DNA from: Sordariomycetes sp. S80-01Y
Lineage: Eukaryota; Ascomycota; Sordariomycetes
Direction of reading: 5' to 3'
Length of the DNA: 64,000 nucleotides
Assembly: GCA_037042185.1 (NCBI GenBank)
Contig: JAXQJY010000033.1
Span: forward strand, 2,976,001 to 3,040,000
The number at the start of each line of letters is the position of its first letter. Within the stretch, counting starts at the first letter, position 1. The position numbers were made by a program, and so were the translations under genes. Positions 4,922 to 64,000 of this stretch are shown one piece after another. Under the pieces are notes generated by a model. It was given only the letters and a program-made list of their open reading frames with translations. It was not told where the DNA came from and did not search any database.

Positions 4922-5842
4922 TGCGCGATGATTTCCGCCTGGAATGTATAGAATATATGTGTAAAACTTGGACTAAAACCCAGAGAAAAGAAGTATATGG
5001 GCCTCAAAAAGGCTTGATTTGTGTATTTGGTGGGTGTGAGAAAGACTATGCCACTGGGAGAGATCGGAATGGGTAAAGAGGGGAAGATGTATGATAAGGG
5101 GAGCTGAGCACGTGGTGCCCCTGACACATTGTCACCAAAAACAATTGTCGATGGTGGCATCAAATGCCATGCTTTTCCAAGGTGTTTCAATCCATTGAAT
5201 CTATATCTCGCATTGGAAGGGTGAATTTTCCGTAGAACTTACAGCCCGCTCGTACCAAAAGATCGAGCATCGCGAGCTCAGCTCCCATGGGAGATCTGTG
5301 TGGAGCTACATCTAACTGGACACAGCACGACGTATCACCGTTCCCGTACCTGGCCTGCAAGATCTGAATGAGCAAGACTACATCAGAGATCAGTGGGTGA
5401 TTATATTGTGTTCAAGTGATGTTTGAAGAAGATGGAGCCCTGAAAGAGGCTTTGGCCCCCCCTTGATCTCGTGTAAGTCGGGGCTGAGCACGACGAGCTC
5501 ACATGGAGGGGTCCGAATCAGGAATCCCCAAACGCTTGGATTACACCACCAGCCATCATCGACTTTCCCACTCTTTTCCCAACAATGCCCTCATTTCCCT
5601 GACACATAACAATCCAGGTCGTCCCATCCGGCAGGGAGATATATCTCTCAATCCATTATTCAAAATCATCTGATTTTGTTTTCCCATCGTCCGCCGAGAC
5701 CGGGCCTCTATAATAAGAAGCTGCCCCGCCATCCGGGATCGAGCTCCCTTATCAATCAGCGGTATCGATCCATCTCCAACTCCGATCGGCGTCGCGTCCG
5801 CCGTCTTCAGCCTTTCACCGGCACGGCTCTCTTTTCGTTAAG
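4922..5842. other. Divergent intergenic region
   Basis: This is the shared upstream region of the aldehyde dehydrogenase (-) and the F-box-like gene (+). It has no convincing coding frame. The final 200 bases are the likely leader of the plus-strand gene, and a 60-codon frame at 5676-5858 overlaps its start out of frame. Confidence 0.5.
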
Positions 5843-7105
5843 ATGGCGAGATTTATAGATCTGGATGATGAGGACAGCGATGCACCACAAGACGCTTCAT
5901 CCCGCGTCGAGCAGCACATACGCAATGCTGTCGTCAATCTGCCCTCGAAGCCCGATCAAGCCTCGAGTCGCGATGACGATGTCCAGCCAGAGAGCCAAAG
6001 ACCTCGCATCAGCAACGCCATAACTCGCGCCTTCGCCTGCTACCCCATCCTCCACACCGTGATCTCCCATCTCGACCTGATAACCCTCGATGCCCTCTCC
6101 CGCACCACCTACTACATCCACTCCTCGCTGATCCAGAACCGCAGCGTCCTATTGACATCAACCCTGCGCTGCTCAAACGAACATCTTCCTGTCGATCGAG
6201 ACGAAGCTCTGAGGTACAGAGCCAGAGCCGGCAACTGGTACTACATGGAGGATGGGCGCGGGTACAATGGCAAAGCTGGCGACTGTGCTCGGGATCTGGT
6301 GGGTGAGTGCCGGAGGTGTGGGGATGTGGTGTGCAGAAACTGCATCATCAAACCTCCTGCGCAGGTCACGCTCAAAGAACGACATAGACGCCTATGCTTG
6401 ACCTGCACGAGGGCGCCGATTCCCTTGTTGGCAAAGCCGCCGCTCCCGCCCACCCTGTCCCTGGCGTCGGAGCCGGTGCAGAGGGCGATCTGCCAGTGCA
6501 CAAAGGAAGTCTGGCTTTGCCAGCCGTGCGGACGCAGCATCCGCGCCACGGACTCCGAGTATCAGCGAATATGGCGCTGGAGGTCTCATTACGGTGAAGT
6601 CTTGGGTGGCCTAGGCACGGGGATTGGCGATGGCGACAGGGGGGTGATATGCGGACGGGAGGGTATGTGCTTGAATGCCAAGGAGAGGGAGACCGAGATT
6701 GATTGCGATGCGGCCGATCTGAAGGATCATCCCTTGCACTCGTGGGCTGAACTCTCGCCTTCGAACAGCAATTCCTCCACTCCCGAGAACCATCTCCTGC
6801 ACAACCCCTTGGATAACGTCTCGACCACGCCGCATACGCCGTCGCCGCTGGAGAACGCCATTCTCCAAGAAGAGAGGACGCCGAGTCCGCAAATCAGATG
6901 CGGGTATGAGCGGCATGAGATTGAGGGCATCGGGGGGGTGGTGAAGAGGAAGCTGGTGCAGATGGTCAGGGTGGGTGCTTGCGTGCCTGAGTGGGAAGAC
7001 GAAAGAGGGCCGGGCAAACGGGCTCTACAAAGAGAGGTCGACGGGACCATGAGGAGCTGGTGCGGGTGGTGTTGGAGGGTCATACCCGGACAGGATGACC
7101 ACTGA
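5843..7105 (+). CDS. F-box-like Cys-rich hypothetical protein
   Basis: A single exon of 420 residues starts at an ATG preceded by TTAAG. Residues 60-105 read like a degenerate F-box helix pair (YPILHTVISHLDLITLDALS, then a hydrophobic helix). Paired Cys follow (CRRCGDVVCRNC near 156-167, CLTC, CQCTKEVWLCQPCG), looking like zinc ligands. The last third is low-complexity and then basic. The layout fits fungal F-box-like proteins that would act as SCF substrate receptors. I base this on the hydrophobic pattern, not on a clear motif, so the function is tentative. No intron is needed. Confidence 0.65.
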   Translation: MARFIDLDDEDSDAPQDASSRVEQHIRNAVVNLPSKPDQASSRDDDVQPESQRPRISNAITRAFACYPILHTVISHLDLITLDALSRTTYYIHSSLIQNRSVLLTSTLRCSNEHLPVDRDEALRYRARAGNWYYMEDGRGYNGKAGDCARDLVGECRRCGDVVCRNCIIKPPAQVTLKERHRRLCLTCTRAPIPLLAKPPLPPTLSLASEPVQRAICQCTKEVWLCQPCGRSIRATDSEYQRIWRWRSHYGEVLGGLGTGIGDGDRGVICGREGMCLNAKERETEIDCDAADLKDHPLHSWAELSPSNSNSSTPENHLLHNPLDNVSTTPHTPSPLENAILQEERTPSPQIRCGYERHEIEGIGGVVKRKLVQMVRVGACVPEWEDERGPGKRALQREVDGTMRSWCGWCWRVIPGQDDH

Positions 7106-23403: not shown

Positions 23404-24587
23404 ATGGCCGTGACTGACTCGACTGCGAGCCTAACGCTGCCACCGCTGGACCTGAGTCTCTTCCTCTCAGGGACGCCGGAGCAGAAGAGGCAATTCGCCG
23501 ATGACTTCTGCAATTGTCTCAAAAGACATGGCTTCGCTAAACTCATAAACCATGGCCTGACTGACGAGAATGTCAAGGGTCTGTACCACTGGGTAAGAGT
23601 CCTAGTCGTGTAAGACCCATTGGAAAGGGCCTTCGATGTTGTGACTGCGAACACGCACTCGCTAACACGCCTTCGCGTTTAGAACGAGAACTTCTTCTCC
23701 CTATCGCCACAAGCCAAGTCTGATATTGCGCACCCTGGAGGCCCAATTCCCCAGCGCGGCTGGAGCCGTCTTGGTGCTGAGAACAGTGCGAAGCTCAACC
23801 ACTCCGGTGTCAACGGTGGAAAGGAGGGCAGGGAGGCACAAGGCGCCTCTGAGGTCGACTTATCTGACTCGAGAGTAAGCGACTCGTCGGAACTTTAGGA
23901 CCGAGCAGTGCTGACTCCGGACAGGAGCATTTTGACCAAGGCATGCGGACTGACAAGGAATACTCGAACCGGTGGCCGAAAGAGGAGCTGCTCCCCGGCT
24001 TCCGCTCCTTCATGGAGAAGCATTACGAATCGTGCAACTACATTTCTGTCGCCCTCCTCGAGGCCATCGAACTTTCCCTCGGTCTCGAGATCGGGTCTCT
24101 CTCAACCAAATGCTCCGGCGGCGCCTCCGAGATGCGCCTCAACCACTACCCACCCATCAAAGTCGCCCAGATGAAACAGGGCAAAGTCAGCCGCATCTGG
24201 CCACACACAGACCTCGGTGTTTTGACGCTGCTCTTTCAAGATACGGTCGGCGGCCTCGAGATCGAAGACCGCAAGAACAAGGGCCACTTTGCGCCAGTCC
24301 CACGCGAGAGGTGGAACGAGATGCTGGTCAATGTGAGCGAGACGCTCGAGCGCTGGACGAACGGCGTCTTGCCGGCAGGCGTTCATCAGGTCACCGTTCC
24401 ACCTGCGCTGAAAAACCAGGACGACGCGATCATTCCGGCGAGGTATTCGAATGCTTTCTTCGTCAAGGCTGATCGGGAGGCCGACGTGGGTGCGTTGAGC
24501 CACTTCGTTGCCGCTGGGCAGGAGCCGAAGTACAAGTCGATGACGGCGTTGGACTACCACAAGTATCGTGTTGCCACTGCTTACTAG
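23404..24587 (+). CDS. 2-oxoglutarate/Fe(II)-dependent oxygenase
   Basis: Three exons, 23404-23592, 23683-23874 and 23925-24587, all in phase 0, give 347 residues. The N-terminal DIOX_N region (PPLDLSLFLSGTPEQKRQF, then FAKLINHGL) is followed by the double-stranded beta-helix core. The iron ligands are His221 and Asp223 in WPHTDLGVLTLL and His281 in GVHQVTVP, with Arg300 in ARYSNAFF for 2-oxoglutarate. This is the isopenicillin-N-synthase/gibberellin-oxidase-like family, which hydroxylates, desaturates or cyclises small molecules using O2. The substrate cannot be told from sequence, and no biosynthetic core gene is adjacent. The introns are 90 and 50 nt, the first with GTAAGA and TTTAG. Confidence 0.9.
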
Positions 24588-32276: not shown

Positions 32277-34760
32277 CTAGCCCTCCACGATATGCTCATT
32301 CCCGTTTTCATCGCTTTCAATGGGGTCGCCCTCAAAGCTCGGCATTGTCCGAATGTTTGGACGGCGAAACTCACGTCTTCTCAGCGAGCGGTGTGGTCGT
32401 CGCTTGTTTGGCAAGTGCGGTGGTTGGGGTGGTGGCACATCATATGCCCTGCGGCCGATGAAGGGTGGTGGTTGGTGGAAGCGCGATCCGTGGTCAGAGG
32501 ACCCTGGTTCGGCGGCCAGGGAGGTTGCAGATGTCATCGTCGGAAACACCGACGACGTAGCAGATCCGATGCTTTTTGCGCTAATTGAAGATGGTGATTC
32601 GTTCTGTGGGCCTTCTGGAAGCTTTCCAGAAGCTTTCCTAACGCGCTTTTGTGAAGTGGTGTGGTCGTGTACCGGAGACCTCACGCCTTGAATTGAGGAT
32701 CCCGGTGCTCCAGCAATGTCGCTCTTCGCGCGTCCTTCCATTTTGAGAAGCTCTAGTGTAGTTACCTCTCGGGCGTGTGCGAGCGCCTGGCGGCTGATCT
32801 CAGCAGTGTCGCCATCGCAGACGAATTTCATCCAGATCTCATCCTCGTCCTCGATGCTCTCGTGACGGGCGCCCAGGTCCTTGCTAGCCCCGTCTCCTTT
32901 TCCTTGGCCGATACGTTCCACCTTCGTGGGTAAGTCCTGTACATGGGGCGGCTTGTGAAGCCCGTGGCCGTGAGGCGCAAGCCCAATACTGTCACGCACA
33001 CCGGCAATATGAGGATGCGACAAGTTGACACGTTCTCCTCCACGTGCGGAGGGCACTGGATCTGGCTGTGCTTCCCCATCCTCACCTTCCTTCGAAATTG
33101 CAGTCGAGACTGCCAAATGCACCATGGAGGTTTCCTCTAGGTGGTGGGTATCGTCTTCGCCCGAGACGAGGGCTGAGTTTTGGGCTTCGTCGTGAGGCGA
33201 CCCGTCGAGCGCCCGCAATATCAATGATGGTCGTCGCAGCGTAGTATCGGGGGTGTCCGAAGCATTCAAAGCTTGGCTAAACCCGGGCGTGATACTACGG
33301 GCTGCCTGTTGATGGTCTCGTGCGATACCCCTTTCGAGCCTTTCGCAACTTGGCTCGATCCATCCCGTCCATTCATTGTCCTCCTCTCGACGAATTGCCC
33401 TCTGATCTTTTTGCTGCCCGCCAATTTCAGTAATAATGCTGCTCGGCTTTTCGAACCGCTCCTCATTACAAGTACTCGAGGCTCTGACAGTATGGCCTGG
33501 CTGGACGGGGTTGGGTCCATCTGGTCGAGTGAACAAAAACGAAGCGCTACTAGCGAGTGATGACGCAGCCTCAAAGGGGGACCCAGACGCCACAGCTTGC
33601 GACATATTCCCGGCTGCTTGTGTGGTGAGGCTGAGAATTGGAGGGATTCGAACGGTGTTGATTTGGTCTCGTGACGGATGCGGATGATGAATCGCCGGAG
33701 GGAAACTGTCTCCTTGATGGAATTCCTGATCTCTGGCGGTCGGCCCGCGATAGTGTAGTTTCGAAGCAAGCTCCTGACGAGGCGAGACACGATACATTGG
33801 AGACCTACGGTCCCACGGTTCACTCCAGTCTTCTTGTACGGAAGAGATCCGTGGCGGAGGCGACAGTGTAAGCTGGCGCGACGAGTCCCAGGCGTCCCGA
33901 GTTCTTTCGTCCTCGTCGTTCGTCAATGGTGAAATCCGCCTGCTTGCCGCCCTAAAGGTATTGTTATCTTGACTCCACTGCATACTCTCGCTACCAACAC
34001 GAAGCCTCATTAGAAGCTCATGTCTGCGAGATGGTTGTCCCTGTTCATACGGGCTGATGCCTGGGGATCTACCTCCAGTTGCCACGGCGTTTTGAGCATC
34101 GCAAGGGGCATGACTGTTCTTCGAGGGCTTGTGGTGCTTATCACGTAGTTCGCGGTTGCTTCCATCGTAGTCCACAACAAGAGGCTTCTGAACCTCGATC
34201 CCTGTCCAATCAGTCTGGCCCAAGAGCTTCCGTCTTTTGGCTTCCAATTCGGCCTTCACTTCCTTCTTGAAGGTGCTCTTTCTGCTTAGCGTATCGTAAC
34301 ATCCGTCGATCGGTGCCTGCGGAGAGGACTCGACTGACTCTGTAGAGACCCGACCCAGCAGCTGCGCCACATGATCGTGTGAGGAACTTGAGGGGTTCGA
34401 AAGTATCCCCTTCGATAAATCTAAGTTCGACTGTGGCTTTGGAGCTCGTTGTGGGACGTGGCTCGGTACAAACGGAACAGTCCTTTGGCTCGTTGACCTC
34501 GCAAGAGTAGCAGGATGAGCATGGGCCCGTGCTCGGGCGAAGCTTTTCTTCTGGCGCGCTTGATCTTTGCTCCAGCCTGTAGGACGCGAGAATCGGTTGA
34601 GGGAACTTTCCGTCCAATTCATCATGGGAGTTGCGGACGCATGAGAGTCATTCTTGGGTCCTGCAAGTGCTTCGACAGCGTGCTGCAGTCGAGAGGGGTA
34701 TGTTTGCTGAGCGCTGAAAATGGGTATCGGAAGTGTCGTGTGTCCTTCATGGAGTAGCAT
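32277..34760 (-). CDS. Unrecognised disordered protein
   Basis: A single open exon of 827 residues from the ATG at 34760; an alternative start is the Met pair at 34625 and 34622, just before NWTESSLNRFSRPT, where an ordered-looking basic segment begins. Most of the chain is Ser/Pro/Arg-rich and looks disordered. Three islands look conserved: a basic N-terminal block (WSKDQARQKKSFARARA), a KAELEAKRRKLLGQTDWTGI segment near residue 170 and an acidic DEIWMKFVCDGD segment near residue 665. It ends in ESDENGNEHIVEG. The pattern resembles fungal nuclear or cell-cycle proteins known only as hypothetical. I do not recognise the family and assign no function. It is divergent from the coiled-coil gene at 35244. 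Confidence 0.7.
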   Translation of the reverse strand: MLLHEGHTTLPIPIFSAQQTYPSRLQHAVEALAGPKNDSHASATPMMNWTESSLNRFSRPTGWSKDQARQKKSFARARAHAHPATLARSTSQRTVPFVPSHVPQRAPKPQSNLDLSKGILSNPSSSSHDHVAQLLGRVSTESVESSPQAPIDGCYDTLSRKSTFKKEVKAELEAKRRKLLGQTDWTGIEVQKPLVVDYDGSNRELRDKHHKPSKNSHAPCDAQNAVATGGRSPGISPYEQGQPSRRHELLMRLRVGSESMQWSQDNNTFRAASRRISPLTNDEDERTRDAWDSSRQLTLSPPPRISSVQEDWSEPWDRRSPMYRVSPRQELASKLHYRGPTARDQEFHQGDSFPPAIHHPHPSRDQINTVRIPPILSLTTQAAGNMSQAVASGSPFEAASSLASSASFLFTRPDGPNPVQPGHTVRASSTCNEERFEKPSSIITEIGGQQKDQRAIRREEDNEWTGWIEPSCERLERGIARDHQQAARSITPGFSQALNASDTPDTTLRRPSLILRALDGSPHDEAQNSALVSGEDDTHHLEETSMVHLAVSTAISKEGEDGEAQPDPVPSARGGERVNLSHPHIAGVRDSIGLAPHGHGLHKPPHVQDLPTKVERIGQGKGDGASKDLGARHESIEDEDEIWMKFVCDGDTAEISRQALAHAREVTTLELLKMEGRAKSDIAGAPGSSIQGVRSPVHDHTTSQKRVRKASGKLPEGPQNESPSSISAKSIGSATSSVFPTMTSATSLAAEPGSSDHGSRFHQPPPFIGRRAYDVPPPQPPHLPNKRRPHRSLRRREFRRPNIRTMPSFEGDPIESDENGNEHIVEG

Positions 34761-35243
34761 CTTCCCTAAGAGAGAACTCGCACTCTATGCTTTGAGGAAA
34801 GAAAGAGAAGGATGTCATGTGACGTGAACGGTGTCATAACGGAAGAGCGAAGGGGCACTTGCCCGATCTCTTCCAGTCGCAACATGGGTGCGTAAATCAT
34901 TGATTGTGCCGGGAACGGCGCACAGATTTTCTCCGCTGGGCACTAATCCGATTCCACTGGACACTCGTGGAAGAATCTGTAACATCGGCGCAGTGATAAG
35001 GTCATGATATTTAGATGCTGGTCTGAGAAGTACGTCGGGCTTGGAGCTCTACGAATACTGAGTACCTCTTTCGGAAAATAGTGGGGCGCTGTGAGCACCC
35101 CTGCAGAGGCCAGCTAACCTCCCGCGCGATGACGCTTTAGCTCCTGTCGTTGAGCTTCGACTGCAATCATCACCGCGCGAGCCGATCTAGCTGCGCAATT
35201 CATTCATTTATCACTCGCCTGAACAGACCGACGAACGAACACC
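34761..35243. other. Divergent promoter region
   Basis: There are 483 bases shared by the unrecognised gene (-) and the coiled-coil gene (+). I see no coding frame or element in it. Confidence 0.5.
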
Positions 35244-36995
35244 ATGGCAGACGCAGAGGAGAAGGCGAAGCAGGAGAAGATTGCCGCCGCCCGCAAGCGC
35301 GTAAGCTTTGCGACCTCGATCCCTCCATCGCGAGCTAACGCCCCTTAGGTCGAGGAGATGAAGAAGAAGAAAAAGAAGGGAGGCGCGTCGAAGAAGACCA
35401 AAGAAGAGCCAAAGGACGAAGCGAAAGGAGACTCCAAGGAAGAAGCGAAAGAAGAGCCCAAAGAAGAGACGCCTGCTGAGACGCCTGCCGAGACCACAGA
35501 GGAGGCTCCCGCCGAGTCCACTGAAGCAGACGACAAAGCCATTGAAGATGACAAGAACGACGACGCATCCCCGCCTTCTCTAGCTCAACAGTCAAAGCTG
35601 CGATCGACATCTTTCCGTGCAGGTGCTAGTCCTGGCTCGCCTGGACCCCTCAGTCCTGACGGCGGCGACACGGCACCCGATATCTACAGAAAGCACGTCG
35701 CTCGGATAGAAGAGCTTGAAAAAGAGATCAAGAAGCTGTCGAAGGATAATGAAGACTCGGAGAAGCGCTGGAAGAAGGCTGAAGATGAATTGGCGGATTT
35801 GAGGGAGGCTGAGGGTGGCGCCTCGAAGGGAGATGACGATACCGAGAAACTCGTACGTACGGTTTCATCATCCAAAGAGTCCAAGCTAACGTCTTCGCAG
35901 AAAAGCGAGATTGCTTCGTTACAGCGACAAAACACCCAGCTCCAGTCACAAGTCTCGAAGGGAGGCCACGGGCACCGCCCATCCGTCTCCGTCGCCTCGC
36001 CGCCAGCCGACCTACAAGCCGAGCTTGAATCCAAGTCGTCAACCATCGAGACCATGGAGATTGAGATCTCGAAGCTCAAGGCTCGCGTCGAACGTCAAGA
36101 ATCTGGCGCTGAGACCGAGAAGGAGCAAGTTACAGCGCTCGAAGAGAAGCTTGCGCGTGCCGAAGCCGCTGCCGGGAAAGCGCAGCGTGAGCTGCAGGAT
36201 CTCAAGCGCAACCTGGAGCGCACGTCAGAAAAGGCTGTGAAGGAAGGTAGTGAGCGATCGAGCGCCGAAACCAAGGTGCGCAGCCTGGAACAGGAGCTTG
36301 GGGAGATCAGACTGTCCAAGGGCGAGGCTGAGAAGAAGGTGGAGGCGCTAGAGAAGAAGGTGACCACTCTGACGACGCTGCACAAAGAACAGGACTCGAG
36401 ATCACAAGCACTGAAGAAGGAGAAGGAGGCCCTGGATACGGAAGTCAAGAAGCTCAAGACACAAGTCGAGAAGCTAGAAAGCGAAAACACCAAACTCAAG
36501 AGCCGCAAGTCCACCGAAGGGGGTGGGGGCCTAGATGACGAAGGCGTCGACGAACTCGAGAACGAAGAACGCCTCAAACTCGAGCGCAAGATCCGCAGCC
36601 TCGAATCCGAAATTCACGAACTGCGTTCTGGGCAATGGATCGGCAAGCGCCGCGAGCTGGAAGCCACATCTCCCGGATTCCAGGACGTTGACCTCTCGGG
36701 AAACAACCAAGGCGGCGTCGGCCACAAGAAAGCATCGCACGGCGGCGGCATCGGAGACTTCTTTACCAGCGGTCTCAATGCACTAGCTGGGACGGACGAC
36801 CAGCTGCTAGAAGACGATGACATGGACTTTGATGAGGATGCATTCAGACAGGCTCAGGAAGAGGAGAGCAAGAGGCGGCTGGAGAGGATCAAGGAGATCA
36901 AGAGGAGTTTGAAGCATTGGGAGGGGTGGAGGCTGGATATCGTTGATGTGAGGAGGGGCGGGGGAGAAGGGATTGGGGAGATATTCGAGATTTGA
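35244..36995 (+). CDS. Long coiled-coil protein (fungal 'M protein repeat' type)
   Basis: Three exons, 35244-35300, 35349-35852 and 35901-36995, give 551 residues. The first exon (MADAEEKAKQEKIAAARKR) runs straight into a Lys-rich stretch and an acidic Lys/Glu/Pro tract. From about residue 115 to 440 the protein is almost continuous heptad coiled coil. A Gly-rich segment, an acidic patch and a strongly conserved-looking end (HWEGWRLDIVDVRRG and GIGEIFEI) follow. Such proteins are usually annotated as golgin- or M-protein-like; a tethering or scaffold role is inferred, not shown. The second intron is 48 nt, three-fold and stop-free, with GTACGT, AGCTAAC and TCGCAG signals, so a 16-residue insertion isoform is possible. 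Confidence 0.85.
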
Positions 36996-45411: not shown

Positions 45412-47365
45412 GATGGCTGCGGTTGGGAGGTTATTCTGTAGCAGCGCAGCGGGGCGTCCTCGATTGCAAGTTGGTAAGGGCTGCTTATGAGAGCTCGTTC
45501 AGTTCGAGAAGGCCAGGGTTAGAAGAAGCTGTATCAGAACATAAAAACACTGAATAGATAGATTGCGACAGCTCTCGACAGCTCTGGACCGTAACGGTGG
45601 CATCAATTGGCCAAGAACCCGTCGGAGTTACGTAGGCCGACATAGCAAGGTGGGCTGCCGCGGGCCGACCTCAGCTCCGTCTGAGCTTTGGCCGCGGAAT
45701 GGCAGGTCCCCCGGTTGGGTGCCTGATTCTTCAGGCGACATCCCCTGCATTGACTCTCGAGACCATCCCGAAGCTAATCTTTTCCCCCAATCCCCAACGT
45801 CACCTTATCAACCACCAAGCTTCTCCGCCATCCAAACGCGGCCGTAAAGACATTAAAGCCATTGTATTCTCTGTCGCAGAGTCTCGTTAAAGTTCAGAGA
45901 CCAGCTGCTCGTGCGTCATTGCTGCGGCGTACTCGGGGGCACGCGCTCTTTGTTCATTTGACCTTTTGGTCGGTGTTGGCCCGGCCAGCGCGGTTTACGC
46001 ACTTTGGCCAGTCTCTGTAGCCGGCGCGACAAAAGACCATAGCATGCTTCACCTCCCATAAGGCTACGGTAAAAGCGGTGGAAAGGTCCAGTGAGACTCG
46101 GTCAGTCCAGGTAGGCATCAGCTCCCGAAACCCGACACCCAACCCAACCTGCATTTTCCTGCGCCACGCGCATCATCAGCACCTCTGCCCAGCGCGTCTG
46201 CCACAGGTGCAACCGCACCCTCTGGTCGACCGTGCGGCTTCTTCTACATCATGTGATCGGAATGGCGACACCGCCTTGGACTGCAATATTTAAAATGCAA
46301 GTCTGGAGCTCAACCAGAAATGGCATCAAATGACTATACCATATCACTGTCGCAGCATGGCTTTGGTGCTCGCTGAGGTGGAGGTGGACTGCTTGCTTGC
46401 TCTAGGACAAGCCTAAGGTGTTGGGCGCTGGCGCGTATAAGGCGACGAAGAGAACTCGACGTGGTCATTCTCAATGAGCTGTTCATCCTAGGACACTCAG
46501 GGTTTGCACCGTTTTGCGTTTCCGTCGAGGTCATGAATCAACCTGATTATGTGGTCGGCGCTACACCCCAGCGGCATCTGGCCACGACGGGCAAATGAGC
46601 TACAGCGGGCGCTGCCTGCGGCGCTTGTGTGCATCAGAAGCAGCCGTGGCCGGCTTGAGTCCTTGTTGGACTGATCATATTTGGTCTTTGCAACTAGCCT
46701 CCAAACCATTCCGCTCAAGATGTATCCGTACAACGAGCGGGTTTTCAGGGCGAGTCGCTGTCCTTGTTGCATCATCCAGAATGGTACTCCTTAGCGCCTA
46801 TCTCGACATCACCAATCCTGGCTATTGTCGACACAAAGTCTTTGGTCATATTCTTTCCTTCCCACTCAACGTCGATTACCGCCCTCTTTTGCCTTATCAT
46901 CATAATCTGACATATTTTTCTTCCCAGACTCCCTCGTCGATCTCCAAGATTGCATCCATTCACGACGCATCGTCACATGCAACATCCTGGCGGATTCGAC
47001 CTTTCCGGCTTAGCGTACATCTGTCGCACTGTCTGTCAATCGACCCTCCCCGATACCCGATCATTATCCGTAAGCTTTGACACCCCTAATCCTCTTTGTT
47101 TTCACGGAACTTCGTCGCCCTGCCTTAACACTTTCATCAATTGCCCCACTTCACTGTGGATCGGCTGCCGTTGCCCACTCATTTCGTCCTCCCTTGTTGA
47201 CTTCACAACATCATCCGTTGCCTTCATCTTGGGGTTCGACTTTGACATTAGCAAGCCGTCATGGTGCTGCAACTCAGTAGCGATAATTACTGACATATAG
47301 TGGCTCTGCAGAATTTCTCTAGTGCCAGATAGGATCTTCGCGACAGCCCCAGGCTTCGCGCCAGG
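45412..47365. other. Divergent intergenic region, long leader
   Basis: There are 1.95 kb between SLY1 (-) and the PNUTS-like gene (+). No gene is supported. The right half is CT-rich and may be a long leader of the plus-strand gene, with a possible spliced intron from GTAAGC at 47070 to an acceptor at 47300 or 47311. Confidence 0.5.
47070..47311 (+). other. Candidate 5'UTR intron of the PNUTS-like gene
   Basis: GTAAGC donor at 47070; acceptors TATAG (ending 47300) and TGCAG (ending 47311) follow a TTACTGAC branch-like site. Signals only; the start codon at 47366 is unaffected. Confidence 0.4.
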
Positions 47366-50300
47366 ATGCAGTCCTGGCAAAGCCAGAACGGCGGCGACGG
47401 CAATAACTCGTGGCAGCAAGACTACAATTTCACGACACAAAATGGGCAATTCGACCAGACCCAGGCTTGGTCGCAGCCTATGCCTGGACAAAACCAGAAC
47501 GCCTTCACCCGGCAGCTGAACCCATCCGATCCTTCCAACAACTTGTTTCATGATCCAAACATGCTGTCCTCCTATCAGGATGGCCATGCCACCTTCGATT
47601 TGAATCAGCAGTTCTCTGGCCAGGATGTAATCGACCCGGCTTTTAGTGATCTACATCCTGAATTGTACTCCCAGCAAAACAACAAGATGGACCTCGGCGG
47701 GAGTAACATGCATCATCTTGGTCAGGTTCAGGGTCACACTCAGAGCCAGACGCAGAGCTTTTCGCCGCAGACATTCAGTAACTTTGATGCCCAGAGCCAG
47801 CATGGACAGCAATTCCGCTCCAACACGCCCCAGTACACTCAAGCACAGCTGTTACCGCAGACATCGCGTCAGCAAACTCATACGCCCACACAGCAGTTCA
47901 GCAACATCCAGCCCAACTTCGCGACGCAACTTCGACCATCACATACCCCCCCTGCACAGCAACAGCATCAGTACCGCTCGGGCGATGCCTTTGGTGCCTC
48001 TCAGGTTAACGGCCATAGTGCGCAATATCAGCAAGGCCACAGTTCGCAGATGAACTTCCAGCAGCCGTCCCAATATCCTCAAACCAATTTTAACCCTGCC
48101 CAGTTCCAGCAACAGACGCAGCAGACCTTCACTCCTCCTCCTCAACAGCAACAGCAGCAGCAACAGCAGCAAGTGGATCCGGGCCTAGTACAACATATTC
48201 CTAGTCAGGATGGAACACCACAATCCCAGTCAGCTCCGTTCGAATCGCCAGTGGTATCTGGGGAACCAGCGAAGAAGAGGCAAAGAATCACGAAGGCAGT
48301 CACACCCACCACGTTTTCACCCGCACCCGAGGCTCTTCCGCAGTCTGTAGGCTCGCCAATTGAGCAACCTGGGAAGAAGATGGAGGAGCTTGATGCGCTT
48401 GTCGCCCCTGTCGCAACTCCAGAGGAGGTCAAGCTTATTCAAAAGTTCCAAAAGCGCGGAAAAGCTGCTCAAGCCAAGTTTCCAACGATCAAAGGCTTGC
48501 CTCATCTGGCACAAGAAGGGACTATCAGGCTTCCAGCTCCAAAAAGCTACGATAAGCTGGCACCCCTGGTGGCCATTCCTTCACGAAGCAAGAAGCCAAT
48601 TAACCCCGAGGCTGGTGTTGATCTGCCATCTGAAATCCAGGGCCGATTCACCAGTCAATATCGTCCTGCTTTTGATCGCATCGGATTGGATGAGAGGAGG
48701 AGCGAGGCTAGCACGTTGTTGGATGACTTTGACAAATCAATGAAGGCACTGGGCAAGCGTCGTCCCAAATACACGGAATATCCTCGTAAGTTTATTGGAT
48801 CATTTGGTTCGACAGTACTAACACGGTCAGACTCTTTCAAAGAACAGCTCAAAGCAGATGAAGCGACTAAAAACAAGGCTGAGAAGAAAGCCAAGCTAGC
48901 TCAAGGGGGAGAGCGCAACAAGCCTGTAAGTTTTATAGCACACGGAAAGCAGACATGGAGTGCTGACTGTGAAATAGATCCGCCCAGCTCAACGGCCCAT
49001 TGACCCCATCGAGGCAGCCGCTTGGGATATAATTGGCATCGTGCACCTTGATCCCAACGTGCAGAAGAGCAGTAGCCTAGTTGCGCAAAGGGTACAACAA
49101 GCCGGCGACTTCTTCATCAAGCTCCGAAGCGAGGTCAACAAGTCGAAGCAGGAATTGGATAAAGCCACCGAGGAGAAGAAGCCCGACCTTGACATCGACC
49201 AGCTCAAGAAGCAGCATGAAATCAGCAAAGAAGCTCTTCACCGAGCTTATGACGCCACGATCGAGCATGCCGATGACTCGGTTATGGACAATCTGGGCGG
49301 GCATCAGAAGCTGGTGTTAAGTCTGGTCAACGTTCTCATTTCAAGTATCAAAGCCGGTGATTTCAACGGCAAGCTGCCGAAAGTGGTTTTGGAACTATTC
49401 ACTCACTTCCCGATGACGAAAAAGATTGCCGAGACGACGAATTTCGACACTGTACGAAAGAGGTTTCTCGACAAAGGCGACGACGACATGAAGGAGCTGG
49501 CACGAGAGATCACGCAAAAAATCAAGAAGATGAAGCAGGCCGAAGAATCCACAGGGTATCAAGGAACTTCATCCGCGAGCCGCGCGAAAGCTGCCGCTAA
49601 GACAGCACCTGCGTCCGCGAAGAGAGGCCGAGATGATGAAGAAGCAAGTGACGGGCGTACGGCAAAGAAGGTGGCCGTCGGTGCGGGCAGCAGCTCGCTT
49701 AGCAAGAAATTGGCACAGCCCAAACTGCAGCTGGCCTCTGCGTCCAAGAGCTCTGCCGCCAAAGCTAGCTCAAATATCGTTGGTGATAGGGGTCGTCCTG
49801 TAGCGAAACCTGCGGCAACAACAAGGCCGGAGTCTACACCAAGGACCGACAGCCCGGACGATCAGGGGAAGGCTGGAGCGAAGCAATCTTCAGTGAAAGC
49901 TGATGCCGCCAAGATCGCGCCTTCAAAGTCTAGTGGGAAGCCACCGGCTCCTTCAATGGGAGCCGCGCCATCCTCGAGCGCGCTTTCCGGCATTGCTTCC
50001 CTCCTCGACTCCATCAACACTAAACAGCCAAAGACACCTCCGACAGCAGCTAAGGACTCAAAGGAGTCCGATACACACGAGACTCCAGAGGAGAAGGCCA
50101 GAAGGTTGCGCAAGGAGGCTCGGCGGAAGCTTCGCGTCTCATGGAAACCTGAGGCTGAGCTTGTCGAAACAAGGGTGTTTGAAAAGGAGGACGATGAGGA
50201 TGAGGGGCGCGATTCGAACATGGTCCGCGACGCTGGCGACGACAAATCCGAAGGTATGGTCCTCAAGCAGAGAGGCCATATCGAGGAGGACGATGACGAT

Positions 50301-53369: not shown

Positions 53370-54468
53370 CTACCACGCGGTATGGCCCCCGTCAATCACC
53401 AAATTACCGCCCGTCATGAAGCTACTGGCATTGCTCAACAGAAACAGTCCTGCGCCCTTGAACTCACTCGTCGTCGCAAGCCGGCCCATCATATTCTCCC
53501 GACACCACGTCCTCTTCAGCTCGGGGTTCTTCTCCATGTCCCTGTTTATCATCGGGGTCATGATGTGGCCCGGGCTGATGCAGTTGACGCGGATGCCACC
53601 CGTGCCATCCTCCTTGATGGGCGTCCATTCCATGGCTAGGTTGCGCGCGAGCTGGATGACGGCCGCCTTGGAGGAGTTGTACACTGGCGTGATGAGCCCC
53701 TTGTTGGCGATGCTGCCGGACATGCTGGCGATGAGGCAGATGCTGCCACGGCACTTGTACTCCATCATCTTGCGCGCCGATATGGTCGCCGTCATGAGCA
53801 GGCCCGTATAATTGATGCTCAGCATCTTGTTGGCGTCCTCGCTGGTATACTCCGTTGCTGGCTTGATTTGCTGGATACCTGCAGCTGCGACGACTCCATC
53901 GAGGCCCTGATTCTCCTCTGCGATCTCGTCGATGACCGTCTCAAGATGCCTTGTGTCCTCGACATCTACCTGACGATATACTAGCGAGCCTCCCCACTCG
54001 GGGTTGACGCGACTCTGGGCCTCGGACCATTCCTCGTCCGGCTTCTCCGCGCGGTCGAGGCAATACACTTGTTCCCGTCAGTAACCGTTGCGATGCCTGC
54101 GCCTACGTCCACGATTTAAACTCACCTCTTCCACCAGCCTCGACGAGCGCCTCCGCCAGAGCAAGACCCAGACCTCTCGCACCGCCAGTGACGAGGTATG
54201 TCTTGCCAAGTAGGTCGAAGTCTGCGAAGCGCTTGGCTCCTACATTTTCATTGCGAGGCAAGGGTTCCGTGCTGTAACGCGCACCCTTGACTCCCTCGCT
54301 TGCGGCGGTGGAGTGTGAGCAGCGGAGTTGTGGTAGATGGATGTTCGCAGCAGGCAACGCATTGCGGTGCGGCGCGTACTTTGTTGTGGAGTTTAACCCG
54401 AGGGAACGGGGACGGGGTGCTTTCACGAAGAGAGCGCGGGAAAGGATGCGGCGGGATACGACCATCAT
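53370..54468 (-). CDS. Short-chain dehydrogenase with mitochondrial-type presequence
   Basis: Two exons on the minus strand, 54468-54126 and 54067-53370, give 346 residues; the 58-nt intron (GTGAGT..CAAG) joins GGRVYCLDRAE in phase. The first 70 residues are Arg/Ser-rich and free of acidic residues at the start (MMVVSRRILSRALFVKAPR), as in mitochondrial presequences. The SDR core follows: TGGARGLGLALA, an AAAG in place of NNAG, IASMSG and catalytic YNSSK, with ISPGHIMTPM. The core is closest to fungal sorbose/L-xylulose reductase-like or arabinitol dehydrogenase-like enzymes, which interconvert sugars and polyols. A mitochondrial place for such an enzyme is inferred from the N-terminus only. 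Met1 and Met2 are adjacent ATGs. Confidence 0.87.
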
Positions 54469-55044
54469 GGCTCACGATGCTTGGGATTTAGCGACCATGA
54501 GTATCTTGATGGACCGACGAATGTAGTTTTATACCTACTCTACTATGCTAGGGTCATACGACTACATGATGCAATGCAATTTCACGTCGAAACGCAAACA
54601 GGATTCCGTCACTCTCACCATGGAGTAGAATCCTCGTCCCCGCGGTTGTTGGTGGTTTGTCTCAGCGGACAAGGGGAGAGGGGCAGGTTGACGTTAGACA
54701 GGTGTCAATCGACATGTTGCGTCGATCTCGATAAACATACGTAGCCACTCAAGGTACGCATTGGAGTCCCCACGACTGTTGATTGGACTCTGACAGCGGG
54801 ACAGCGCATGGATTATGGCAGCCAACGTTGGTGACACGACCCTCCTTCGACGTCAATCATAGGAAATGCCCAGGCCAATACCAAGCAGCGCGACCGTTGC
54901 AAGAGCCTCACGCCTTGAACGTGCTTCCATGGAACGAGTGCGCGTGATGGTCATGATGCACGCTGGGGGGCAAATCTCGACTCTCATAATTACAGCTCAA
55001 CCTCTTCACAGCCTGGGACCAGCCCAGCCAGCAATGAGGTCGCG
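54469..55044. other. Intergenic region before U2
   Basis: This is the promoter of the dehydrogenase on the left and the 3' flank of the U2 gene on the right. No coding gene is seen. Confidence 0.5.
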
Positions 55045-56015: not shown

Positions 56016-56082
56016 CGCGTTTATCTGTTTTTTTGGTTCTATGCATCACCACATTCAATAAGTGCTTCCAGATCCCATCAAC

Positions 56083-57928
56083 ATGCATTGGTTCGTCACA
56101 GCCGCCGTGGCCTCTTTGGCTGCAACTGTGGTAGCTCAGCCTGTTGAGGCTGATGATGCCACCGAAATCTTCATTGGCATCCACCCAGAGGACCATGATC
56201 TCTTTGAACGAACCCTGTACGTCATCTCCGACCCCCACCACAAGAGATACGGCCAGCACCTGTCCGCTGCAGAAGCGAGAGACCTGCTTCGACCTGTGCC
56301 CGGCACAACTGAAAACATCAAGAGATGGCTGCTGGACGACGTAAACGTTGGAGAGCATCACATTGAGGACGGCGGCGGCTACATCCGAGCTCGTGTTCCC
56401 ACTCAACATGCTCAATCGCTTTCCAAAAGGTCTACGGCTGGTTACGACCAAGTGCCTGGGCATCTTCGTCGTCACATTTCCCTCATCCAGCGCATGGAAC
56501 CTCAAGTTTCTGGAACTGGTACCAGCTTTGGAAAAAGAGCCTCTCAACGTGACTCTCTTACCCCTCGCGTCAAAGGCTTCGACTCCAAACCTGACTTGGA
56601 GGCTTGCAAGGATACCCTGATTCCCGAATGCGTCTTCGAGCTCTACAATATCGATTCACCCCCGGCTAAGCCTCAAGCCAAAACCAAGTATGGAATAGCT
56701 GGCTTCAATGGCGTAAGTCTCCTCCTCGGATTATATCCATGCCGTGTGCTGACCGCCCCAGCAAACCGCTCAGTTCGATCAGCTTGAGCAGTTCATCGAC
56801 CGTTTCGCCCCCTATGCAGACGGCGGCAACTTTACTGAGGACCTCAGCGCCGGGGATAACCCACAGGGCGAATATCCCAGTGGCGAAGCTAATCTGAACA
56901 TACAGTGGGCTGTTGCCATGGCCTTCAAAACCTCTGTCGAGTACATTCCCATCGCCGGAGAAAACCACAACATCATCCCCGACCTTGACATCCCGGACCC
57001 TGACCAGGTCTCGATCGAGCCGTACCTAGATCTCACCACGCACCTGCTGTCCCTTCCAGACGATGAGCTGCCTCAGGTTGTGTCGATATCGTACGGCGTC
57101 AACGAGCAACACATTCCATTCGACTATGCCAACACCGTCTGCGACCATTTCGGTCAGCTTGGTCTTCGCGGCGTCAGCATGATCACCTCTTCTGGCAACC
57201 TCGGTCCTGGATATTCCTGCTTATCAAACGACGGAACCAACACCACAAAGTTCCTGCCTGGATTCCCGCAAACCTGTCCGTACATTACCGCTGTTGGGGG
57301 CACCATCGACCCTACTCACGAGAAGGCGATCAACTACAGCGGTGGCGGCTTCTCAGACTACTGGAAGAGACCCGAGTGGCAGGAAACTGCCATTGGGGCT
57401 TACATCCAGGAGCATGGAGTTGAGTGGAAGGGTTACTACAACGAGACTGGGCGGGCGATTCCTGATGTTGCGATGATCGCAGATGGCCACCAAATCGTGA
57501 ACCATGATGTGGTTGAGAGAACTGGTGGTACGAGGTCAGTGTTCCCACGTCCCAATTCAGAGTCCATCATTGACAGATGCAGTGCTGCATCACCTGCTTT
57601 TGGCGCTCTCATCAGCCTCATGAACAACGACCGCTTCAAGAAGGGTAAGAAGCCAATGGGCTTCCTCAACCCCTGGATCTACTCCATTGGGGATGTTGGC
57701 TTCACCGAGTATGTTGCTTTTTCTCCCCTCTTCATCTCTATTCCATAACTGATCGACAACCATAGCATCACCGAGGGCAAGTCAGTCGGGTGCCAAGGAC
57801 AGAGCATCGCGGGCCTTCCGTCACCTTACATCCCCGATGCGGGCTGGTCTGCCGTCAAGGGCTGGGACCCTGTCACTGGCTTTGGAACTCCCGACTATGC
57901 CAAGTTAAAGAAGCTAGCATGCAAATAA
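56083..57928 (+). CDS. Secreted sedolisin (S53) family protein, active site altered
   Basis: Four exons, 56083-56712, 56762-57534, 57577-57708 and 57766-57928, give 565 residues. A signal peptide (MHWFVTAAVASLAATVVAQ) precedes a sedolisin propeptide (to about 190) and a catalytic-type domain. By spacing with human TPP1, Glu252 is the family Glu, but Asn256 replaces the triad Asp and Asn356 (TSSGNLGPG) replaces the oxyanion Asp. Ser470 (GGTRCSAAS) fits the nucleophile. The C-terminal calcium site (GFTDI, then WDPVTGFGTPD) is kept. Active members are secreted acid tripeptidyl- or endopeptidases; this one may be inactive or changed in function. The 42-nt intron 57535-57576 is three-fold and stop-free, and I call it because removal restores the Ser motif spacing. 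Confidence 0.85.
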
Positions 57929-58174
57929 GCGTTCTAGCTGCTGGCCGCTGGCTACTTGTTTGACTGCAGCACTTGGGGATTGGCGCCAAGCTTTTCTTTC
58001 GTACTCGCTGCTGTCCAGCGTTGTGGCTTAGGGGTTAGGGGGAGTGGACGTATTGAATTTGCAACCTGGACTTCTCTTACAAATTTGGGTCATTTTTGGT
58101 ATCTTTACTACCAGATGAAGAGCTTGATGACTAGTGATTTCATTTGCGCCAGTTACATGCGACAACTCAGAGGT

Positions 58175-61100
58175 CTAGGAAGACAACCCAGCGTTCCCCA
58201 ACAGCCACTTCACCTCATCAATGACACTTTCCAGATTTCCTTCGGCATCGACCGGCAATACATCCACTTCGCCCGGGCCGGCGCCTTCGTATACATCCAT
58301 TTGTCCTTCTACCATCTTGGCGCTCATGTAATGTCCCTGTCTGGCCTCCAAGCGCTGCATGAGAACATCCTTGCTGGCTTGCAGATCCACGAATACAGCG
58401 TTGATACCTTGTTTCGCCAGACCCTCACGAATTGAGGACCGATAAGATGATTTCAGAGCGGAGCAGCTGATCACAGCGAATGAGTAGTCCAACTCCTTGA
58501 CAGTCTCACAAGCATGCGCGCAGACACGATTTAACCAGCCAGCGCGATCTTCGTCTGAAAGAGCAGTGTTAGATCGCATCTTCTCCACTGCGCTACGGCT
58601 GTGAAGGGAATCGCCTTCGATAAAGGGTACGCCAAGCCAGCCCGCGACGGCGGTGCCGGCGGTTGACTTGCCAGTGCCGCAGGGGCCGGCCATGAATATC
58701 GCGGTTTTGGGCGACGCTCTTGTGGACGGTTTCCATGAGGTTTCGAGGAAGTAGCTGACGAACTTCTTGACGAATGATGGTTCAAGAAGTGGAGCGTTTG
58801 CGAGAGCTGGTGAAAGAGAGCACGCAACATCCGTGGCGAACTCCTTCGACGGGCCAAACTCGTCCTTGTCGTACTTTGAGGCGAAGAAGTCAACCAGCTT
58901 GATTGGGGGGTTGACTTTGGGATCGGGATTTGAAGAGCGGAGTCTTTGCACCCACTCCTTCGGCTCGACCTCCTCGAACTCCAACCCTGCTGAGCGCAAA
59001 GCTGGGAGCAAGTCCTGTGTGAAGCTGAACATCTTGGGGTGGGTAACGTTGGTGAATCCACTGCCTGATTCCGAGAGAGAAATGTCGGCAATGGCCTCAG
59101 CAACCGTATCGACTGGTAGCCACGAAGGGGTTTCCTTGAGCTTGGGGAGAGCACCGATGGTGACAGCGGTCTGCATCATCATCGGCACCGCCTCCTGTGC
59201 GTTCCAAACACCGTGCTTTGTATCACCCACGATCTGGCCAACGCGAAGCACGCGCGACGTGATGCCCTGATCAGCGGCCTTGGCGCAGATATGTTCAGCA
59301 ACGGACTTCGACTGAGCGTACCCCATACCCTGAGCCCACTCCAAATCCGGCAAAGACTCTGGGACCGGAAGTGTCGTGGCCCGGGTGCACGTGCTGACCG
59401 ACGAGCAGAAGTTCATCGAAGCCTTGTTAGGCGAGGACTTGCACAGAGCGAGCAGGTGGTTGACGCCGGCAATGTTTCCCTTTTCGAAACTCGAAAGCTG
59501 CATGTTGAAGTTGACAGACCACGCGCAGTGGATGACAGCACGCAGGTTTTGGGAGACCCTGTCGTAGTCACCCGGGGAGAGGCCGAGCTTAGAGTCAGAG
59601 AGGTCCGAAGGTAGGGCAGTAATCTTGCGGCGGGACTCGAGGGGAAGAGTGTGGTATACCCTGCGCTGAATCATGGACTCTTTTACTCGCTTGAGGGCCG
59701 AGGCGGAGTCAGAAGCGCGGACCAGGCAGTAGATCTTGGTGATGTCCGCTCGGGTTGAGAGTTGTGCGGCGACGTGCGCGCCGAGGGAGCCAGTAGCACC
59801 AGTGATGGCCTATTCCGGTCAGATCAGATGTTATATCAACAAAGAGCGGGGTCGAGTGTTTATTTGGAAGGGGGCTCAGGGGTTGTAATCTTGGAAAACA
59901 GGAGCACTCACCACCGAGGACATTGACTCCACCGTTATGCTTCCGTACTGCTGAATCAGAGCCTGCATTTGCGACTCTATCGAAACAGCTTCCGCGGACT
60001 CGCCCTTTCTTTGCGCAAGCAGGAACTTGGCGAGCTTAGCGATCGAGGGGTTTTCGAAGACTACGTTCTGCCCAAGCTTCCCGCCACCAACGTCGATGGT
60101 CTTCAATATTTCACTGCGCATCTGTATCGCTTGTAGCGAATCGAGACCGAGAAGAAAGAAATCGGTATCATCGTTGACCTCAGCCTGCGACGACAAAGTT
60201 TCGGAAAGTAGCTTGCGCAGGAAGTGAAGAAGCTCGGGCAACTCCAGAGTTTGAAGCTCACCGGAGCCGACATCCTGCGCGTCATATATCTCATCAATCT
60301 GCGTCTTGAAGGTTTTGTAGAAGGCCTGTCGGATGATGCTGCCCTTGTCGGTCCTCGGATATTCGCACTCGGGCTGTAGCAAGCAGACCATGCCCTTAGA
60401 GATGCGAGCAAAGGCGTCGACGTCTTTGTTAGCGGCCTCAACCACGGGCCAAATGATGTCCAGGATCTCCTTCTGCGACTTTCCCGTCAAGCTCGGCGCA
60501 GGTACAATCAGAACACCAAGGTAAGGACGCCCAGCACCGAAAACCACCGCTTCGGCAACGTGCTTGTTAGATCGGATCTGACCCTCCATGGCTACTGGGC
60601 CGAACTTCTCGCCATTGACCAAGACGAGAGTGTCATCCAGACGAGCGATGTACTTCCAAGCGCGAGCAATGGTGGGATGGGGCTCGAACAGGTCCTTGGT
60701 TGCGTATGTGCCATCTGGCTGGTTTGACTGAACCTTAGCCGGCCATCCATTCGTGACGGTACACTCGTAAAGGTTGGGACCGCGCGGAATCCACCTCAGA
60801 TATGGAGATAGCTTGTCGTGTTCGCGGACATAGTTCCACGCCTTGTCGCCCTCTGCCCGGAACGATGTCATGAGCTGCCCAACTTCAGTCGCGCCATAGT
60901 GCCCAACGAGATTGACACCGTTCTCGACTAAAAAGTTGCCCAACTCGTCTGGACAGGCTGAGCCGCCGTACATAACGATCTTTAGTTGCTGCAAGAGCCG
61001 GATGCCTTCCTCCGACTCGGAGAGCAGCTTGAGCGCATAAGGCACGCCGTAGAAGATCTCGAATTGATGCTCGCGCATGATCTTTGCAAGGTAGTCTTGC

Positions 61101-61993
61101 GTCAACGGAAGATCGGCGTTGTACATGTGCAGTGACTTCCGCGAATAAATTGCTCGGAAGAAGTTGCAGATGCCGTGGTTGTGGAAGAGCGGCAGAGTGA
61201 TGAAGGCCTTCATGTTCATGCTGAAGGCGTAGTTTGCGATGCACGACTTTTGAGTCTGGTAGATGGGCTTTGGCAAGCCAGTAGATCCTACAAAGAGTCA
61301 ACGACATGTCTATCTCATACAGCAAAGTGGCTTACCGCTTGAGTGGATAATGAAGGCGATGTTGTTCTTCTCAACCTCGATATCCAAGTGCGCATCCAGT
61401 CGCGTGTCGCCACGGAAGTCAACAGGGAACTCGAACACACTCCGCCCGGCGATTTCAGCGAGCTGGAGGGAGGGTATACTCTGCTGAACTTGGCCTGCAA
61501 GCTCGAGGAACCTCGCTTCTGCCACAATTGCACCCGCATTGGTCATGCTGATGAGGTTCTCTATCGCAGGCTGCGGTATCCTCGTTGATAATAGAAGAAC
61601 AGTGTGGCCGAGCTTGCTCAATGCGAGCTTTGTGACGAGGTATTCCAGGTTCGAAGGACCGAGCAGAGCAACAACCGTTGGCTTCTCCTCCGATGACCTC
61701 CGCACCGGAAGACGGCTCTCGTAGTGCTTTGCGACTCTCCACGCAAAGACATCCAAGTCCTGCATGGTGTAATCGACAAACTTGATCCCTTCGCTGGGAT
61801 ACGAGACAGCGTGATCATGCGGGTGCAGCCGTGCTCGTCTCCTCATCAGTCCGTCAATGGTCTTGAGACTTGAGTCATCTTCGTCTGTCTCTGGATCGAT
61901 GCTCAATGAGTGACTCTGGGGCGCCGGTTTGACATTTTCACTCTCAACCTGGAGAGTCTCGAGCGGACTCGGCACGTATACTGAAGCAGGCAT
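58175..61993 (-). CDS. NRPS-like adenylate-forming reductase fused to gluconokinase
   Basis: Three exons on the minus strand, 61993-61336, 61287-59912 and 59809-58175, give 1,222 residues. Residues 40-480 are an adenylation domain (SSGSTGLPKPIYQ across intron 1, YGGSACPDELG, HYGATEVGQL). A carrier domain follows with Ser603 in LGLDSLQ for phosphopantetheine. Residues 679-1035 are an NAD(P)-binding thioester reductase (ITGATGSLGAHVAAQL, catalytic YAQSK at 842-846). A linker of about ten residues leads to residues 1046-1222, a complete gluconokinase: Walker A GPCGTGKST, EGDSLHSRSAVEKM, SDEDRAGWL, SCSALKSSYR, LEARQGHYM. The first three domains normally activate a carboxylic acid, load it and release it reductively as aldehyde or alcohol. 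Reductase and kinase share one exon without a stop. The acid substrate is unknown. Confidence 0.92.
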
Positions 61994-62931: not shown

Positions 62932-64000
62932 ATGGCCACCGCCACGGCTGTCGACAAACCTGACGTTGTCATGGTTGACGACCGGTCGTCCATCAACAAA
63001 CCTACCGACGCCGAGAACGGTCGCGGTCAGATTCACACTATAGATAACATCCGAGTCTTGGGGCTTTCAGACGAAGATGCAGAGTTCTACAACAACCACT
63101 CAGAGGCCCAGAGGAAGAAGATCACGCGCAAGGTCGATATCCGGCTGGTGCCTATGCTGGCTATCTTGTACTTGATATCCCACCTGGATCGCGCCAACAT
63201 CGGAAATGCGAAGATCGAGGGCCTCGGTACTGATCTCGGTCTTGATGATTTGCAGTACAACATCGTGCTGTCACTTTTCTTCATCCCCTACATCTTGCTC
63301 GAGATCCCGAGTAACATCTTGCTCAAGAAGTTCAAGCGACCGTCGGTGTACCTGGGCATCTTGGTCACATCATGGGGTGTTATCATGACTCTTCACGGCG
63401 TTGTGAAAAACTTTGCTGGTCTCCTGGTTGTACGATTGTTGCTCGGTGTATTTGAGGCCGGCTTCTACCCCGGCGCTGTGTACTTGTGCACATTCTGGTA
63501 CATGCCCCGGCAGTTGGCAACGCGCATTGCGTACTTTTACTGTACCTCTGCTCTTTCTGGTGCTTTCTCTGGTCTTCTCGCTGCTGGAATTGCCCAGATG
63601 GACGGCGTTGGAGGATACGAGGGATGGCGCTGGATTTTCATCCTGGAGGGTATTGTCACCGTTGCCCTCGGAGTTTCTTGCTTCTTCTTCCTCATCGACT
63701 CACCCACTCTCTCCGGAAGGTGGCTCAAGCCAGAGGAGATTCGGTTCCTCGAGCTACAGACCTTCATCAAGCAGGGAGGTCGCTTCAGCCATGAGTCAAA
63801 GGAGAAGGCCTTCAACTGGCACGATCTCAAGATGGTCGTCACCAACTGGCGGCTATACATGCAGGCTTACATCCTTATGTGTATTTCTGCTTGCTCCTAC
63901 GGTACCAAGTTTACACTGCCCAGCATCGTCAAGGGAATGGGCTTCACCAATACCAACGCGCAGTTGATGACCGCCCCAGCTTACGTTGCTGGAGCCATCT
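62932..64000 (+). CDS. Major-facilitator permease, Dal5/allantoate type (partial)
   Basis: The frame is open from the ATG at 62932 to the window edge (356 codons so far), so the C-terminal part is missing. After a polar N-terminus with TRKVDIRLVPMLAILYLISH and LDRANIGNAKIEG, typical of the anion:cation symporter (Dal5/Tna1) family, it shows transmembrane helices around FFIPYILLEIPSNILLKKF, VVRLLLGVFEAGFYPG and a GWRWIFILEG loop, all landmarks of this family. Members import small organic anions such as allantoate, nicotinate, pantothenate or sugar acids at the plasma membrane. It is divergent from the reductase-gluconokinase gene, so import of a sugar acid or export of a product are both possible; the family fits import better. 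No intron is seen in the visible part. Confidence 0.92.
   Translation, partial: MATATAVDKPDVVMVDDRSSINKPTDAENGRGQIHTIDNIRVLGLSDEDAEFYNNHSEAQRKKITRKVDIRLVPMLAILYLISHLDRANIGNAKIEGLGTDLGLDDLQYNIVLSLFFIPYILLEIPSNILLKKFKRPSVYLGILVTSWGVIMTLHGVVKNFAGLLVVRLLLGVFEAGFYPGAVYLCTFWYMPRQLATRIAYFYCTSALSGAFSGLLAAGIAQMDGVGGYEGWRWIFILEGIVTVALGVSCFFFLIDSPTLSGRWLKPEEIRFLELQTFIKQGGRFSHESKEKAFNWHDLKMVVTNWRLYMQAYILMCISACSYGTKFTLPSIVKGMGFTNTNAQLMTAPAYVAGAI

Follow-up and report, generated by a model that had tools for sequence, protein, structure and literature searches.

A predicted fungal adenylate-forming reductase with a C-terminal gluconokinase domain: a new example of the A-T-R-gntK architecture

Adenylate-forming enzymes with the domain order adenylation-carrier-reductase (A-T-R) adenylate an acid, load it as a thioester and release it reductively, while gluconokinases of the GntK type carry out an ATP-dependent phosphorylation. 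Lys2, the alpha-aminoadipate reductase (TIGR03443), shares the A-T-R order and, to our knowledge, carries no kinase. The two kinds of domain are combined in AFLA_054270 of Aspergillus flavus, which is listed as 'A-T-R-gntK', with a length of 1251 aa and a place in SMURF cluster 18, in Table 2 of a 2014 paper that used NCBI's CDD to identify domains and reciprocal best BLASTN to find homologues (PMC4073137). The homologues given there are A. flavus AF70 307.m000171, A. oryzae AO090009000033 and A. parasiticus 9.m006043, and expression of AFLA_054270 is given as RPKM 0.0-0.3; the available parts of the paper assign it no function, and 'cluster 18' is absent from the text (PMC4073137). In open-licence PMC full text, this paper alone contains the locus tag, and it was the one relevant paper for gluconokinase or gntK together with NRPS terms. 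Judging from the portions available, the A-T-R rows of the same table share the A-T-R core and lack the kinase domain, and RcNPSL4, a single A-PP-TR module that groups with AN8105, has a similar core. The NPS10 subfamily of fungal NRPS-like enzymes, as far as its available description goes, likewise carries an extra domain C-terminal to A-T-reductase, but there it is a dehydrogenase (PMC5118889).

We analysed a 64,000 nt window (GC content 55.4%) from Sordariomycetes sp. S80-01Y, in which a gene of 1222 residues matches AFLA_054270 in its four domains and their order, both being single gene models; this likeness is one of domain order and length alone, as far as the table entry goes. The predicted cluster that holds AFLA_054270 includes a transcription factor, whereas no cluster was recognised here among the 40 neighbouring frames scanned. 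A preliminary description of the window knew of no enzyme described with such an architecture, a view that the entry in Table 2 overturns: by that table, the A-T-R-gntK architecture is a known kind without a function in that paper, and the gene described here is a new example of it (PMC4073137).

The fusion gene lies on the minus strand at 58175-61993, where the preliminary description had rightly placed it, with an ATG at 61993, a stop codon ending at 58175, and three predicted exons separated by introns with GT...AG ends. Exon 1 (61336-61993) runs from the start codon to residue 220, whose codon is split, and encodes the first part of the adenylation domain as matched by Pfam AMP-binding. 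Intron 1 (61288-61335; 48 nt, GTAAGC...TAG) interrupts the adenylation core motif SSGSTG (residue 218), such that the motif is correct only in the spliced reading. Exon 2 (59912-61287) encodes the rest of the adenylation domain, AMP-binding_C_3 and the carrier domain, identified from Pfam and motifs. Intron 2 (59810-59911; 102 nt, GTGAGT...TAG) carries an in-frame stop, and its removal is therefore required to join carrier and reductase. Exon 3 (58175-59809, stop codon 58175-58177) leads from the thioester reductase to the gluconokinase, as identified from NCBIfam and motifs. Since the NADP-binding motif of the reductase begins at the third residue of exon 3, this exon is not a complete gene alone. 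It consists of 544 codons without an internal stop, in agreement with the earlier account of one open exon running from the reductase into a full gluconokinase; when the region was simulated 500 times with a first-order Markov model, the longest open frame on either strand had 300 codons and the maxima averaged 175. The A-T-R-gluconokinase fusion is real as a gene model, and its splicing into a single mRNA is predicted.

Pfam matches to the protein include AMP-binding (residues 51-370), AMP-binding_C_3 (437-557), PP-binding (575-642), NAD_binding_4 (680-918) and a P-loop match, AAA_33 (1049-1182); no condensation domain is among the eight Pfam families matched. NCBIfam models recognise a thioester reductase (TIGR01746; residues 678-1034, 223.2 bits against a cut-off of 213.35) and a GntK/IdnK gluconokinase (TIGR01313; residues 1050-1210, model positions 2-157 of 164, 137.2 bits against a cut-off of 113.75). 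Every domain carries the core motifs that we sought: besides the adenylation motif, these are the carrier motif LGLDSL at residue 599, with Ser603 as the predicted phosphopantetheine residue, the reductase motifs TGATGSLG at 681 and YAQSK at 842, and GPCGTGKS at 1053, GDSLH at 1077, DRAGWL at 1099 and SCSALK at 1126, the last four accounting for all of the kinase motifs that had been named before. A, T and R domains with their core motifs thus occur in one protein, as in fungal adenylate-forming (A-T-R) reductases. The label 'Lys2-like', which had been applied to such enzymes, fits the domain order but not the family: the Lys2 model TIGR03443 scored 140.9 bits against a cut-off of 1030.1, a partial match over the carrier and reductase part. 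The bacterial carboxylic acid reductase model NF041592 scored 65.3 bits against a cut-off of 1300. Among solved proteins, the R domain matched MxaA (4u7w_A) best and an 'Acetyl-CoA synthetase-like protein' (8aep_A) second. The best reading of these matches would be a fungal adenylate-forming reductase that is neither Lys2 nor a bacterial carboxylic acid reductase.

The gluconokinase domain and its linker (58175-58738 on the minus strand; residues 1036-1222 and the stop codon) were delimited from TIGR01313, column conservation, a structural model and PDB matches, and the TIGR01313 score exceeds the curated cut-off with almost the full model length matched. With a kinase alignment as query, bacterial and archaeal genomes yielded at least 593 relatives among at least 594 matches, from which we kept the best 80. 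All 16 columns that are invariant among these best 80 bacterial relatives are kept in the fusion kinase (G1053, G1058, K1059, D1078, H1081, M1089, L1095, D1097, R1100, W1103, S1128, L1130, Y1134, R1135, R1168 and Q1181), although the 80 loci were found via two of the same motifs and the conserved columns lean on that. For columns conserved in at least 90% of the 80, the fusion kinase keeps 28 of 34, and the lowest relative keeps 29. The six changed columns are A1052 and P1054, in or beside the P-loop, A1085 and N1092, after the GD-LH motif, and V1178 and Y1185. These changes could reflect a different acceptor or mere divergence, measured as they are with a bacterial yardstick where fungal stand-alone kinases would be the proper one. 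We dropped a supposed loss of an invariant Asn at 1085, which had been counted on 61 of the 80 loci, as Ala occupies this position in 6 of the 80 relatives.

By sequence, the kinase matched the solved proteins 1knq (E 3.1e-25, 38% identity), 3t61 (E 1.5e-24, 37%) and 4eun (E 4.8e-19, 32%). An AlphaFold2 model, made from an alignment of 26 sequences (the fusion kinase and 25 of the 80 loci), had a mean pLDDT of 89.6. The ten PDB chains that best matched the model were nine gluconate kinases or gluconokinases and 4eun, which is titled a sugar kinase, with TM-scores of 0.78-0.83 by query length; the first adenylate kinase came after a jump in E-value from 2.4e-13 to 3.5e-08. The domain is accordingly predicted, on this model, to fold like solved gluconate kinases. 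It resembles 1knq, 3t61 and 4eun in signature motifs and predicted fold; those chains, however, are kinase only (175-202 aa), whereas here the kinase is the C-terminus of a reductase.

We also looked for related fusions in bacteria, archaea and viruses. The whole 1222-aa protein gave six pattern matches and no confirmed relative in bacterial and archaeal genomes, and exon 3 found no relative in viral contigs. The exon-3 protein matched 75 of 198 genomes (E <=0.001) sampled from the phylum of Amycolatopsis bullii, the source of one of the 80 loci (L079); among the matches listed for these 198 genomes of one phylum, with at most seven candidates scored per genome, none had reductase and kinase in one row, and none had a reductase row and a kinase row at one place. 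We regard this as a weak negative for a bacterial fusion. At five of the 80 bacterial loci (L015, L023, L044, L058 and L075), from the genera Paenarthrobacter, Arthrobacter and Pseudarthrobacter, the gluconokinase is near the N-terminus of open frames of 771-839 aa. In L015, the one locus scanned with Pfam, a glycosyl hydrolase family 3 domain comes after the kinase, and the L023 frame is visibly similar. A candidate C-terminal kinase fusion at L022 (a 508-aa frame) was rejected: its upstream part is overlapped by a 766-aa frame on the opposite strand and is probably no real domain.

The preliminary description also suggested that the fusion might couple a cluster to gluconate metabolism. We find no support for this, since no obvious biosynthetic cluster appears in the 40 neighbouring frames that we scanned with Pfam, from a filtered list of 91 open frames of at least 110 codons outside the exons of the fusion gene; none of these 40 matched polyketide synthase, terpene or P450 families. 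Seventeen of the 40 had matches, one of them (Filament, 35349-36992) below cut-off. They include WSC, aldehyde dehydrogenase, mL58, cyclophilin, RasGAP, Not3/5, two short-chain dehydrogenases, isocitrate dehydrogenase (NADP type), an INO80 subunit, a CCCH zinc finger, a pro-kumamolisin domain and the Sec1 family in two frames, the first of which matches Sly1 best; a 2OG-Fe(II) oxygenase lies at 23868-24584. Roughly half of the genes with matches appear to serve housekeeping functions. The mitochondrial ribosomal protein mL58 scored 127.2 bits to 6ywe, from Neurospora crassa, versus 46.7 and 46.3 to 5mrc and 3j6b, from yeast, which points to a fungal window, probably that of a filamentous ascomycete. 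Long open frames without a Pfam match lie at 32280-34784 (835 aa), 5717-7102 (462 aa) and 47333-49000 (556 aa).

Closer to the fusion gene are a short-chain dehydrogenase (53373-54471; Pfam and NCBIfam) and a likely protease gene convergent with it (56062-57929), which, from its pro-kumamolisin activation domain, probably encodes a secreted protease of the sedolisin type; the 331-aa frame following that domain had no Pfam match. About 940 bases separate the fusion gene from a divergent MFS transporter gene (62932-63999, plus strand; Pfam and NCBIfam), which is cut by the window end. The best NCBIfam model for this truncated gene is the D-galactonate transporter (158.9 bits against a cut-off of 395), followed by 4-hydroxyphenylacetate permease (128.8 against 615.4). 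These scores would fit a transporter of organic acids in general and pinpoint none; the gene is a possible partner of the fusion gene.

What the two halves of the protein do together can be proposed from their families. The A domain would use ATP to activate a carboxylic acid, the activated acid would be carried as a thioester on the phosphopantetheine of Ser603, and the R domain would use NAD(P)H to reduce the thioester to an aldehyde or alcohol. The kinase, with less certainty, would phosphorylate a hydroxyl of the same small molecule, either on a hydroxy acid before activation or on the product after release. We put the chances at about even that kinase and A-T-R share a molecule in this way, be it a hydroxy acid or the product made from it; a coupling of reductive release to phosphorylation had also been suggested in the preliminary description. 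Gluconate-like polyhydroxy acids seem the most likely class of acceptor, given that the kinase retains all invariant columns and most of the gluconokinase signature; the changes in the P-loop and GD-LH regions suggest that the acceptor may nonetheless be other than gluconate. A more specific form of this proposal is a single-chain sugar-acid reductase, whose kinase would phosphorylate an aldonate-like acid that the A-T-R part reduces, or the reverse, to yield an aldose or a secondary metabolite in phosphorylated form, the acid being brought in by the divergent transporter; we think this specific form unlikely.

Alternatively, the two halves may act on different molecules, with the kinase making 6-phosphogluconate from which the pentose phosphate route supplies NADPH for the reductase, so that the fusion would have no purpose beyond co-expression or the supply of a cofactor. 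In favour of this, reductases of the R-domain family use NAD(P)H, the gluconokinase signature is mostly intact, and gluconokinases occur in longer frames elsewhere, as at the five bacterial loci described above. Fusion to an enzyme of the secondary-metabolism type would, however, seem an odd route to NADPH, and the kinase has drifted slightly from the bacterial set; we consider cofactor supply possible, though doubtful. The kinase domain may instead have no catalytic role, being either a remnant or a regulator that binds ATP or acts as a scaffold. Its count of 28 conserved columns, below that of every one of the best 80 bacterial relatives, and its lower GC3 than that of the reductase are consistent with this, but all 16 invariant columns are kept, the frame is open to its end, and, by Table 2 of the A. 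flavus paper, AFLA_054270 carries a gntK domain too (PMC4073137). On balance, a kinase without catalytic use strikes us as quite improbable.

Lastly, the reductase and kinase could be two separate genes, or have been joined in assembly, but this is scarcely credible given that one open exon spans the junction, that the kinase has no start codon and the intervening ~45 nt are too short for a terminator and a promoter, and that the A-T-R-gntK order is already in print for A. flavus, in Table 2 of PMC4073137. Indeed, only ~15 residues separate the R match, which ends at 1034, from the kinase match, which starts at 1049-1050. Near the kinase, the first Met is residue 1051, which falls within the first predicted strand (model residues 12-17, corresponding to 1047-1052), and the next is residue 1089, leaving the kinase without a usable start of its own; this and the short gap make a separate kinase gene appear very unlikely. 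At the junction, a pattern search leaves room for two introns that lie entirely upstream of the kinase: 58874-58807 is out of frame, while 58874-58755 is in frame and would do no more than shorten the end of the reductase. In 40-codon windows, GC3 ranges from 0.62 to 0.80 across the reductase as far as about residue 1017 and from 0.53 to 0.72 in the remainder, being lower over the kinase with no sharp break; the lower values might be taken to mean that the kinase domain arose separately, but they do not demonstrate it. An error of gene prediction or assembly is also unlikely because the architecture is common to this gene and the A. flavus group.

The fusion protein is an orphan enzyme that would both reduce an acid and phosphorylate a sugar acid. 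We know of no characterised enzyme that joins thioester reduction to sugar-acid phosphorylation, nor of a pathway shared by acid reduction and the phosphorylation of sugar acids. The substrate of this enzyme would tell whether fungal carboxylate reductases feed, or draw on, sugar-acid metabolism.
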